48,039 nucleotides of DNA from positions 1-48,039 of the IMG/VR virus record IMGVR_UViG_3300022602_000154. The stretch is one strand, 5' to 3'. Source of the DNA: a virus. Every line of letters begins with the position of its first letter. Positions within the stretch are counted from its first letter, which is position 1. The notes below the pieces were generated by a model that saw only the letters and a program-made list of their open reading frames with translations, searched no databases and was not told the origin of the DNA. Made by a program: the position numbers and the translations under genes. This document shows positions 39,175-42,786 of this stretch, in pieces.

Positions 39175-39840
39175 TTAATCTCTCTTTGGGCCGGGAAGTT
39201 TCTTCAATGTATCAATCGTCTTCTTGCGGTATCCGGTCACGAAGTGGTCGAGGATTTCATGGCCGTGGTCAATGTCCCCACCGCCAATGCGGGTGACGTC
39301 ATCTGGTTCAATAACATATTCGCCACCGGCTGCAACGATCTCGACCGGCGCTGTGCCACCCGACGCCAAATGAGAACCGTATGGGCCAGCGCTGCCGTTA
39401 TACGGTGCGCCGGAAGCATTATACGGAGCTTTGGAGCCATTGTAGGGCGCATTGCCAGCCCCGTAGGGAGTGGCACCATGTTCCATGTATGGCTTTGACG
39501 AAAACATGCGCTTGGCGATCTTGAAGCCTGCCATCGTGTTGCCTTCGCCCATTGCGCCGATGATGTCGGCTGGGATCACGTAAGACCCCGACGGCACGTT
39601 CATTGGAAGGTGATCGGTGCGGCCAGCCACGGGGCTGTGGATCGGTCCCACATGCAACTGGTGCTTAGGTGCTCCCAGACCCAAGGCAATCTGCTCACCC
39701 ATGCCGCCACCGGCAAGACGCGAATGCCGAGCCGTATTCAGTGCAGCGGCAACGGCTTGATCCTGCGGGTGCCCGGCATGCATCATTTCGCCGATGTTGT
39801 GGCTGATTGTTTTCTGGGACTTGCCCTTCGATAGCGGCAT
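39175..39840 (-). CDS. Conserved-style late protein with PYNGS repeats
   Basis: 221 residues beginning MPLSKGKSQKTISHNIGEMM, with AVAAALNTARHSRLAGGGMG and GRTDHLPMNVPSGSYVIPAD. The start SKG-x-S...NI..M...G and SGSYVIPADI...GEGNT are typical of a protein found in the late region of many uncultured phages, probably structural. Residues 130-150 repeat A-P-Y-N-x-S. GAGG lies five bases before the ATG. Confidence 0.75.
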   Translation of the reverse strand: MPLSKGKSQKTISHNIGEMMHAGHPQDQAVAAALNTARHSRLAGGGMGEQIALGLGAPKHQLHVGPIHSPVAGRTDHLPMNVPSGSYVIPADIIGAMGEGNTMAGFKIAKRMFSSKPYMEHGATPYGAGNAPYNGSKAPYNASGAPYNGSAGPYGSHLASGGTAPVEIVAAGGEYVIEPDDVTRIGGGDIDHGHEILDHFVTGYRKKTIDTLKKLPGPKRD

Positions 39841-39847
39841 AGCAACC

Positions 39848-40195
39848 TCAACTATAGGAGACGGCGACGATCATGCCGGAACCGGGGGTGATGACGATGC
39901 CTTTATTGACAGGCATATTGATGGTGTAGATGCCGACGGTGTTTGGGATGACCGCCAAGCGAAAGCCGGTAACTGCCGTCGCCACGGATAGGGCGTCATA
40001 GATGGTGCCCGTTGTCGTTCCAGCCACGATAACACTGACCTTGGCAACCCAGCCAATCGGTGTGGCAAAGTATGTCGCAGCCGTTATTTCATAGGTATTA
40101 ATCGTACCGGCAAGGTTTTGCGTTGTGTGGTTCAGGGCATTGATGCCCTGCACACCGTTTTTCTGGGTCGTCAGGATATCGTCTAAGGATGCGAT
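39848..40195 (-). CDS. Late structural protein, apparent ATC start
   Basis: 115 residues if initiated at ATC (40195-40193), which has AGGAGG five bases upstream and gives ASLDDILTTQKNGVQGINAL after the first residue. I recall the MASLDDILTTQKNGV opening from similar small late proteins of other phages, so the first codon should be ATG. No ATG, GTG or TTG lies in frame between the ribosome binding site and GTG 40153, and TAG is just upstream. A GTG start at 40153 would lose that segment. The rest is beta-rich, probably structural. Confidence 0.65.
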   Translation of the reverse strand: MASLDDILTTQKNGVQGINALNHTTQNLAGTINTYEITAATYFATPIGWVAKVSVIVAGTTTGTIYDALSVATAVTGFRLAVIPNTVGIYTINMPVNKGIVITPGSGMIVAVSYS

Positions 40196-40208
40196 GGCAA
40201 CCTCCTAC

Positions 40209-40240
40209 TTGACTAATGTCATCTGAGATGACATGATAAT
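40209..40240 (+). promoter_or_regulatory. Promoter-like site around a palindrome
   Basis: TTGACT at 40209-40214 is followed by CATGAT after 17 bases, or GATAAT after 20. The spacer contains the perfect 17-base palindrome at 40217-40233. It precedes the plus-strand homing endonuclease gene, which has no clear ribosome binding site. Confidence 0.45.
40217..40233. repeat. Perfect 17-bp palindrome
   Basis: TGTCATCT-G-AGATGACA, eight paired bases on each side of a single G. It is the shape of a dimeric operator or nuclease site and lies in the 48-base gap between a structural gene and the endonuclease gene. Confidence 0.75.
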
Positions 40241-40243
40241 ATT

Positions 40244-40747
40244 ATGGAAAATGAAATCACAACGTGCCGCGTTTTTGAACTTCTGGATTATAACCCAGAA
40301 ACTGGAAACTTTACATGGAAAATAAATCGAAGGGGCCGCCGACAACAAGGCATGGCCGCTGGTTGTGTCAACACTAATGGGTATGTTCGAATTAGTATTG
40401 ATTATCGACTTTATAATGCTCAAAGATTGGCTTGGCTTTTCATAACCGGAAGTTGGCCACAAAAGTTGATTGATCATATTGATGGAAATCCCGCAAATAA
40501 TTGTGCCAATAATTTGAGAGAATGCGACCATGTTCAAAATGGAGCAAATCGAAAAATTCCAAAATCTAATACATCTGGATACAAAGGTGTTTCCAAGATC
40601 AAATCTAGTGGAAAATGGGGGGCATGGATTAAGGTTGAGGGAAAAAGTAAAAACCTTGGATGCCATTTTGACACGCCTGAAGAAGCCCATGAGGCTTACA
40701 AAAAAGCATCTAATCAAATGCATGGGGACTTTGGACGTCACCATTAG
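40244..40747 (+). CDS. HNH homing endonuclease with AP2 domain
   Basis: 167 residues. The N-terminal half has GNFTWKINRRG, a strand-rich NUMOD-like part, and the HNH core DHIDGNPANN...NLRECDHVQN. The C-terminal half (TSGYKGVSKIKSSGKWGAWI, LGCHFDTPEEAHEAYKKAS) is an AP2 DNA-binding domain. Enzymes of this class cut a site in phage DNA lacking them and spread by repair. It lies on the opposite strand to all its neighbours, is more AT-rich, and its end overlaps the next gene's stop by four bases. Confidence 0.9.
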   Translation: MENEITTCRVFELLDYNPETGNFTWKINRRGRRQQGMAAGCVNTNGYVRISIDYRLYNAQRLAWLFITGSWPQKLIDHIDGNPANNCANNLRECDHVQNGANRKIPKSNTSGYKGVSKIKSSGKWGAWIKVEGKSKNLGCHFDTPEEAHEAYKKASNQMHGDFGRHH

Positions 40748-42786
40748 AATTTCCCATCCGGTTGGAACCGATACCTGATAGCGCCCAGACGCCAGAAGGT
40801 GCCCACGTCGCTGGAAGACACACCAATGGACATCAGACGGGCACGGATGCGGACGGAGATATACTCCGTTACCTGTGTCATGTTGTAGGGGCCATAGGCC
40901 GTCACCGCATCACCGGGGTAGTTGGTCACGTAGAATGTAATCTGCACCGTGGCGTTCTGCGAACCGCTGTATGTACCCCACTTCATGTCCGGCCAAATCT
41001 GGTCGATAAAGATCAGATCATCGGCTTCGTTGAGCTGGAAGAAGCCAGTCTGGAACGAAGACAGCATGGCCGTTGTCGATGTACCGCTGGCCGCATCGTT
41101 TCCTATTTCGTGCTGATATAGGTAATTATCAGACCCAGCACCAATGGGAGGCCCAAGCACAGATTGATCAACCCAAGCAGTACGACCAAGAGAGCCATAG
41201 TCCCACTGTTGGAGAACCGTATTGTATTTAACATAGGAATCATTCTCCGTCGAACTCGCCGATGGATAGTACCAAGTCACTTCGTTAAACTGCGAGTTAA
41301 CACCGCAGGCAACCTTGTAAAGGTACGAGGTGTTGATGTTTTGGAAGACGACGTCCCAAATAGGGCAGGGAATGCTTTGCGGCCCCGAACCCATCGACAT
41401 AAAAAACTGCTTCTGGCTCATCCAGAAAATTGCGCCGTTGAGCTGGCCGGTGCAGTGGCGGGAAATCGCGCCGCAGTTTGAGCCAATTTTGTTGAACCCA
41501 TAGACGAATGGCGCACCAATATACTGCATTGCCCATAGATCAAGATCGGTCCAGATCAAGCCCTGCTGCGGACCCTGAACGGCGGCGACAATCTTGGAAC
41601 CGGTAGGGATGCGGTATGAACCAGCCTGATTGGTAGGCGTGGCATTCCACTGGGTGAAGTCGTCGATGTCTGACCAGCGGATAAGGAGGGGGTCAGGCGC
41701 AAGTGTAAACGACGAGCCAAATGCAATGATCTGGCGCTCCGGCATGGCGACGAAGATGCCGCTGTTTACCAGTGGGCCATTGCCGCCGACGATTTGCGCA
41801 TTTTGCAACTGGCCGCCGGGCTGCCAGTAATAGACAGCGCCACCTGCAGGACACGCGATTAGGTCTTGGCCGAAGTTGTCAAGCGTCCAATCGGTAGCTG
41901 TGATAGGCGTTCCGGGCACCGAAGGCTGGGTCGTTCCGACACCGAAGCCACCCGTGCCGAAGCCGCCGACGCCGAAACCGCTGCCGGTAGGCTGTGGGCC
42001 AAGGGCCACATAAAATGTGGACTGGATGTTGCCGGAATTGATTGAAACGGGGCCAGCCGTCGATGTGGCTGTATTCGCAGCAGAGAAGGTAAACGTATTT
42101 ACCGTTGGAACGGTAAGAACGGTATACAGGCCAGATAGCGTCAAACCGCCTAAAGCTGTCGCAACGCCGACATAAAAACTGTCGCCAACATTATAGCCGT
42201 GATTGTTGAATGTCGTGGAAATGATCGACGATCCGCTCGTCGTCGAGAACGCGTAGGACAGGCCACCACTGGTTACGGTTGCCGTCGCCAGAGCGGAGGC
42301 GTTAATCGTGTATGTGGTGCCGCTTGCCGTGTAAATTGCATAGGGGCCGGTGAGAATCAGTCCGCCGACAGATACGGGCGTGACATAGTTTACAAAGTCC
42401 AGAACTGACGAGGTAATCCCCGCGTCTGTAACGGTGACAGTGTTTGACCCAGATGTCGTTGAAAAATTCGGGGCTGAATTCGTGACCGTTATCTGGGGAG
42501 TGATGTCAACGAGGTTATTGCCCGTCAGGACATCGAGCTGTGATTCGCCGCCGATGCCTAAATGATTGGTGGCGTTAAGATCGGCCCAGCCTTTTAGGGC
42601 GCGAATTTTAGATGACAGGGCAGAATTGTAATACGACACCCAGCCGCCCAGCTTTTGCGCCAGACCAAGGCCGGTGCGCTCTGGAAGAAACCGGATCAGG
42701 GCCGAAGACGAATAAGCAGCCTCGTTGAGCGCCAACGTGGTGTTGGTCTCGACGCCCGGCTTAAGCTTAATCGTGTTATGCGGCAT
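40744..42786 (-). CDS. Tail hub/DNA stabilisation-like structural protein
   Basis: 680 residues. The start (IKLKPGVETNTTLALNEAAY, IRFLPERTGLGLAQKLGGW) matches the opening of P22 gp10-like packaged-DNA stabilisation or nozzle proteins in podoviruses. Long Ser/Thr/Gly beta-rich segments follow (residues 100-250), then Trp- and Tyr-rich blocks typical of a beta-propeller hub. AGGG lies eight bases before the ATG. It follows the adaptor gene, as expected for tail assembly. Confidence 0.75.
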   Translation of the reverse strand: MPHNTIKLKPGVETNTTLALNEAAYSSSALIRFLPERTGLGLAQKLGGWVSYYNSALSSKIRALKGWADLNATNHLGIGGESQLDVLTGNNLVDITPQITVTNSAPNFSTTSGSNTVTVTDAGITSSVLDFVNYVTPVSVGGLILTGPYAIYTASGTTYTINASALATATVTSGGLSYAFSTTSGSSIISTTFNNHGYNVGDSFYVGVATALGGLTLSGLYTVLTVPTVNTFTFSAANTATSTAGPVSINSGNIQSTFYVALGPQPTGSGFGVGGFGTGGFGVGTTQPSVPGTPITATDWTLDNFGQDLIACPAGGAVYYWQPGGQLQNAQIVGGNGPLVNSGIFVAMPERQIIAFGSSFTLAPDPLLIRWSDIDDFTQWNATPTNQAGSYRIPTGSKIVAAVQGPQQGLIWTDLDLWAMQYIGAPFVYGFNKIGSNCGAISRHCTGQLNGAIFWMSQKQFFMSMGSGPQSIPCPIWDVVFQNINTSYLYKVACGVNSQFNEVTWYYPSASSTENDSYVKYNTVLQQWDYGSLGRTAWVDQSVLGPPIGAGSDNYLYQHEIGNDAASGTSTTAMLSSFQTGFFQLNEADDLIFIDQIWPDMKWGTYSGSQNATVQITFYVTNYPGDAVTAYGPYNMTQVTEYISVRIRARLMSIGVSSSDVGTFWRLGAIRYRFQPDGKF

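Follow-up and report, generated by a model that had tools for sequence, protein, structure and literature searches.

Which codon begins the short minus-strand gene that ends at position 39848 of the window, the whole 48,039-nucleotide stretch of DNA analysed here (a 48-kb uncultivated virus record), and why should it be the rarely used ATC? The features around the presumptive start are as follows.

39848..40195, minus: 115-codon virion-module gene with proposed ATC start (sequence, relatives)
40193..40195, minus: proposed ATC start codon (sequence and relatives)
40201..40206, minus: Shine-Dalgarno AGGAGG, separated from ATC by the spacer TTGCC (40196-40200)
40205..40207, minus: in-frame TAG stop, contained in TAGGAGG, just upstream of the start

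Start site and its conservation

On the minus strand the region reads GTC AAG TAG GAG GTT GCC ATC GCA TCC TTA GAC GAT ATC CTG and continues ACG ACC CAG AAA AAC GGT GTG; the leader TAGGAGGTTGCC thus precedes the start codon, which is followed by GCATCC. The initial annotation had taken ATC, a rare start codon, as the beginning of the gene on the grounds that AGGAGG lies five bases before it and that an in-frame stop, with no ATG, GTG or TTG before 40153, lies upstream. All of this was borne out on the minus strand, with AGGAGG at 40206-40201, ATC at 40195-40193, TAG at 40207-40205 and the first in-frame ATG, GTG or TTG being the GTG at 40153-40151, codon 15. The N-terminus that it gave as usual for this protein type, MASLDDILTTQKNGV, likewise held up, the ATG, GTG or TTG start of relatives falling at exactly that residue; when the N-termini of homologues were aligned, most relatives had one of these three codons where the window has ATC. 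The locus therefore combines a stop just upstream, no serviceable NTG codon, alignment with the starts of homologues and conservation in independent genomes, and these features argue strongly that the gene at 40195-39848 starts at ATC. Initiation at this codon, and its efficiency, are what we infer from them.

The next gene downstream (start 39840, minus) has the context TGAGGTTGCTATG with ATG, as had been described. Its leader (39840-39852, minus) resembles the ATC leader, with a GAGG overlapping the stop, a similar spacer and ATG kept (TGAGGTCGCCATG in L006). A small hairpin in which part of the Shine-Dalgarno region pairs with bases after ATC was weakly predicted at 40160-40240, minus (z -1.76).

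Relatives were collected from IMG/VR loci, all on uncultured contigs, with the protein and by scans that left the start codon free. Among 47 viral loci found with the protein, ATC occurs in 13 sequences, that of the window among them, and AGGAGG precedes it in every case. The scan for the N-terminal codon pattern yielded at least 120 stretches, and the family leader scan, with AGGAGG allowed at any spacing from 3 to 9 ahead of the conserved codons, yielded 57 AGGAGG-led loci, of which 49 have ATC, five ACG, two ATA and one GTC; ATG, GTG or TTG follows the leader in none of these 57. The spacing was always 5. The loci comprise 25 leader haplotypes, which represent fewer than 25 independent events because leaders may share descent by recombination. 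Such common descent is also the simplest reason for the spacer consensus CT(A/G)CC found in most haplotypes, a consensus measured in the family scan only, the leader scans outside the family having used patterns with a fixed spacer. Conversely, the AGGAGG leader is absent from the 143 canonical (ATG/GTG/TTG) loci, in which the start codon usually shares bases with the stop of the gene before it (TAATG, TGATG, TAGTG). The mean predicted pairing with the 16S tail was -6.05 kcal/mol for the canonical class vs -10.65 kcal/mol for the AGGAGG class.

Across 28 AGGAGG-class haplotypes, the encoded amino acid never changes at ten of codons 2-15, with third bases free, and the frame from codon 2 onward is evidently translated. 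Codon 15, GTG in the window, still encodes Val but by a different codon in 22 of the 28 (third base G in 6, T in 11, A in 3 and C in 8). Conservation at the protein level extends over codons 2-15 but not to GTG 40153 as a codon; codon 1 is the only conserved candidate start. As to cellular genomes, the ATC leader was found in none of 385 from alphaproteobacteria; in a control of 398 Pseudomonadota genomes, TAGGAGGCTGCCAT occurred at eight sites, followed seven times by ATG, once by ATT before a 7-codon frame and never by ATC.

The 115-residue product was modelled by AlphaFold as an N-terminal helix plus a beta domain (mean pLDDT 76). Fold searches gave no informative PDB match, and the sole strong BFVD match is an uncharacterised phage protein. 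The search for cultured relatives of the window protein gave only MW202675, which itself came from spring water. When L050, L059, L070 and L078 are compared with window 39848-40195, the N-terminal ASLDDILTTQKNGV module is seen to precede no fewer than five distinct distal parts, collagen-like GPTGPTG repeats among them, and it looks like a modular virion anchor.

An HNH/AP2 gene between codon 1 and codon 2

Comparison with HNH-free relatives placed the start at the edge of an insert, whose features are listed below.

40193..40741, strand unspecified: 549-bp insert relative to HNH-free relatives, ending in AGGAGGTTGCCATC (window against L013, L007 and L019)
40217..40233, strand unspecified: 17-bp palindrome TGTCATCTGAGATGACA, separating the leader from the HNH gene and conserved in elements of the window type; candidate operator or hairpin
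40244..40747, plus: HNH/AP2 homing-endonuclease gene, 167 aa (PF13392, AP2, phrog_99)
40742..40744, minus: vestige of the ancestral ATG start; it overlaps the upstream TAA stop (40744-40746)
40744..42786, minus: upstream gene, P22 gp10-like stabilisation/virion protein (phrog_3287; homologue annotated as stabilization protein)

The HNH domain was recognised by PF13392 at 40 bits (cut-off 24.8) and by phrog_99 at 4.7e-64, and AP2 scored 31.3 bits, under its cut-off of 33.3. The stop of the HNH gene, TAG, overlaps that of the upstream gene. In HNH-free relatives TTCTAATG is joined directly to GCATC, the empty site reading TTCTAATGGCATCC.., whereas in the window the same TTCTAATG and GCATC are separated by the 549 bp. 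The insert is thus flush between the start codon and the GCN codon 2, and this holds with the HNH gene in either orientation. The antisense arrangement is seen at this point in the window, L003, L005, L017 and L030, as well as in the more distant L143, whose HNH gene is only 44% identical and which again has an ATC start. The sense-oriented HNH genes use the old start codon (GTG in L108 and L159, ATG in L215), and their TAG stop lies within the TAGGAGG that precedes ATC, GTC and ATC, respectively.

Close relatives differ in the presence of HNH at one and the same site (window vs L013, L054 vs L019, L215 vs L127). Scar-like leaders free of HNH occur in L200, L202, L203 (TTCTAATGGCGAACAAAAATTCTAGGAGGCTGCTATC) and L070; TTTTAATAGGAGGCTACCATC belongs with them, and an AP2 fragment persists in L205. 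These leaders probably derive from HNH loss, which we also infer for the remaining near-cognate loci of the family. HNH was detectable in 19 of 68 near-cognate family loci (some contigs being counted twice) vs 1 of 143 canonical ones, and the lone canonical case, L175, carries an HNH fragment, keeps TGATG and has no AGGAGG leader. In L175:1-261 a mini-ORF, MATFNEFCKDRF*, comes after the fragment, and its end in TGATG recreates a coupled ATG start. In a tree built on the upstream gene (40744..42786), the start type switches 21 times, at least 14 of them on well-supported branches, and in independent pairs the near-cognate start goes with HNH about 7:0 (p ~0.016).

The best reading of these data, to which we assign a probability of about 0.78 as a whole, is that the ATC is the near-cognate start codon of a mobile ribosome-binding site associated with HNH genes. 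The ancestral gene would have started at an ATG overlapping the upstream stop (TTCTAATG), and insertion of the HNH/AP2 gene exactly between codons 1 and 2 would have severed it from that start. The edge of the insert would in turn have supplied TAGGAGG-N5-ATC, a near-perfect Shine-Dalgarno sequence together with a near-cognate codon at which translation would now begin, presumably with fMet-tRNA. HNH would have been gained and then lost, the leader apparently remaining as a short scar, and the leader itself may be mobile, being associated with HNH in both orientations and recurring before unrelated phage structural genes. Methionine aminopeptidase removes Met before Ala; codon 2 being Ala, removal would be expected here and the mature protein would be the same in both start classes.

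The same leader before unrelated phage genes

Outside the family, RTAGGAGGYTRCCATCNC also matches about 30 further contigs, and in the majority a long frame for an unrelated protein begins at ATC. With the next codon left free, AATAGGAGGCTGCC was found at 64 sites. Where a frame of 100 codons or more followed, the first codon was ATC 11 times, ACG five, ATT three, ATA once, ATG twice and TTG once, counts that include a few near-identical contigs. In several such genes the first in-frame NTG lies deep inside (codon 75 in L256, codon 94 in L277), and homologues of the L224 (SU10-type adaptor) and L240 families have ATG at the aligned residue. The genes concerned include a major head protein (L248:1394-2254, minus; phrog_3437, 5e-42), which has an ATC start after GGTAGGAGGTTACC, and a tail tube protein (L237).

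An HNH/AP2 gene stands directly before the genes in L234, L272 and L292, its stop being the leader's TAG, and nearby in L248, where it ends about 260 bp upstream of the head protein gene. The homologous tail-fibre genes of L272 (6750-7712, minus; ACG) and L292 (1071-2006, minus; ATT), each directly behind an HNH/AP2 gene, follow the same TAGGAGGCTGCC. In L234:7259-8185 (minus), an 11-nt repeat occurs as ATGACGGTTTT at the start of HNH and as ATCACGGTTTT at the host gene, the two copies differing at the start codon only. No HNH was found within 900 bp in the other-family cases L223, L237, L232 and L247, and nine cultured phages that carry related HNH genes showed no near-cognate leader behind HNH; the leader thus belongs to a subset of elements and not to HNH genes as such.

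A broader proposal, which we put forward tentatively and at slightly less than even odds, is that TAGGAGGCTRCC followed by ATC, ATT, ATA or ACG constitutes a mobile phage translation-start cassette, carried by HNH/AP2 genes that capture the starts of structural genes. Such a cassette would initiate efficiently enough for major capsid synthesis, and gene callers would systematically miss its starts.

Why the codon is not ATG, and comparison with known systems

One possible, if rather unlikely, reason for the avoidance of ATG is immunity: an ATG beside codon 2 would rebuild the target of the endonuclease, and ATC, ACG, ATA or GTC alleles would escape cutting. The insertion exactly between codons 1 and 2 in both orientations, the lack of NTG at all 57 AGGAGG-led loci, the non-ATG codon retained by HNH-free leaders and the two copies in L234 that differ at the start codon alone are all in keeping with this idea. 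As a universal rule, however, it is opposed by L175, which keeps ATG beside an HNH fragment, and by Rhizobium phage 16-3, an apparent start capture in which ATG is kept. Free-standing T4 endonucleases, moreover, cut far from their insertion site (PMC2988022), which also makes the exact insertion seen here unusual. A further candidate explanation of ATG avoidance is descent of one cassette that works well enough.

Less probable still is that ATC serves as a dosage or IF3-sensitive device, in which a strong Shine-Dalgarno and a weak codon together keep a minor virion protein low. A strong Shine-Dalgarno is indeed always paired with a weak codon and a weak one with ATG, GTG or TTG, and precedents exist in the GTC of sigR and the ATT or ATC of infC (PMC5472188). 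Nevertheless, the same leader starts the major head protein of L248 and the tail tube gene of L237, so that low expression is unlikely as its general purpose; GTG and TTG are never used with the AGGAGG leader in the family; and within the canonical class, where dosage compensation was also considered and rejected, codon strength does not track Shine-Dalgarno strength (p 0.32). The weak expression that the initial annotation expected of an ATC start accordingly finds no support here.

It is very improbable that the insert is an intron, or that the frame is reached by read-through or frameshift with ATC internal, even though taking the insert out would restore ATG GCA and short overlapping ORFs cross the leader in L143 and L070. 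No self-splicing intron RNA was matched in Rfam up to E 1 in 40000-40950, and the HNH-free TTTTAATAGGAGG leaders have no upstream start, and hence no 5' exon start, to splice or shift from. These same leaders carry TAA and TAG in frame and lack overlapping ORFs, which speaks against read-through and against a frameshift from a leader ORF. Recoding of TAG was likewise rejected, leaders also having TAA (TTTTAATAGG) and relatives starting at the aligned residue. Although the window is a metagenomic contig, a sequencing or assembly error, or translation from GTG 40153, the outcomes that the initial annotation had named as fatal to its proposal, is scarcely credible, being already contradicted by the ATC of 49 other contigs and by the protein conservation of codons 2-14 upstream of a codon 15 that is mostly not GTG.

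Near-cognate starts are documented in bacteria for infC (ATT in E. coli, ATC in Streptomyces) and sigR (GTC) (PMC5472188), and one ATC upstream site has been reported in a study of near-cognate initiation in E. coli (PMC13245402). The present system resembles infC and sigR in a non-NTG start kept by selection. Those, however, are host regulatory genes repressed by IF3, whereas here phage virion genes, an extreme Shine-Dalgarno, a mobile endonuclease gene and one recurrent leader are involved. The T4 mob genes and the HNH/AP2 genes of Felixounavirus, Klebsiella and Vibrio phages likewise lie between phage genes and are present or absent at one site among relatives, but the elements described here differ from those free-standing phage HNH genes in their precise insertion between start and codon 2, in both orientations, and in the near-cognate restart. 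The ShiLan-domain HNH insertion in a phage methylase (PMC11855218) is similar in that an HNH element lies within a phage gene where no intron or intein is recognised; the reading frame of that host gene stays open through the insert, whereas the window insert pushes the start away and has the gene begin anew behind it. In Rhizobium phage 16-3 (L311) and Sinorhizobium phage AP-16-3 (L310), where HNH precedes xis, CCGCAAACGACAACA is common to both starts, a repeat suggesting that in these cultured phages an HNH element captured a start, but the downstream gene there appears to keep ATG. A search that covered mainly open-access papers gave none that connects homing endonucleases to non-AUG initiation in phages.

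To our knowledge, well-studied natural ATC, ATT or GTC starts in bacteria are few and lie in regulatory genes. Among the phages described here, such starts turn up repeatedly in genes of the virion, even that of a major head protein, behind a leader of nearly fixed sequence, and on the phage tree the start type switches in company with a selfish endonuclease gene. Annotation limited to ATG, GTG and TTG would truncate or lose such proteins or misplace their starts. The system makes it testable to what extent a very strong Shine-Dalgarno sequence compensates in nature for a near-cognate start codon, and how a gene survives a homing endonuclease placed precisely at its start.
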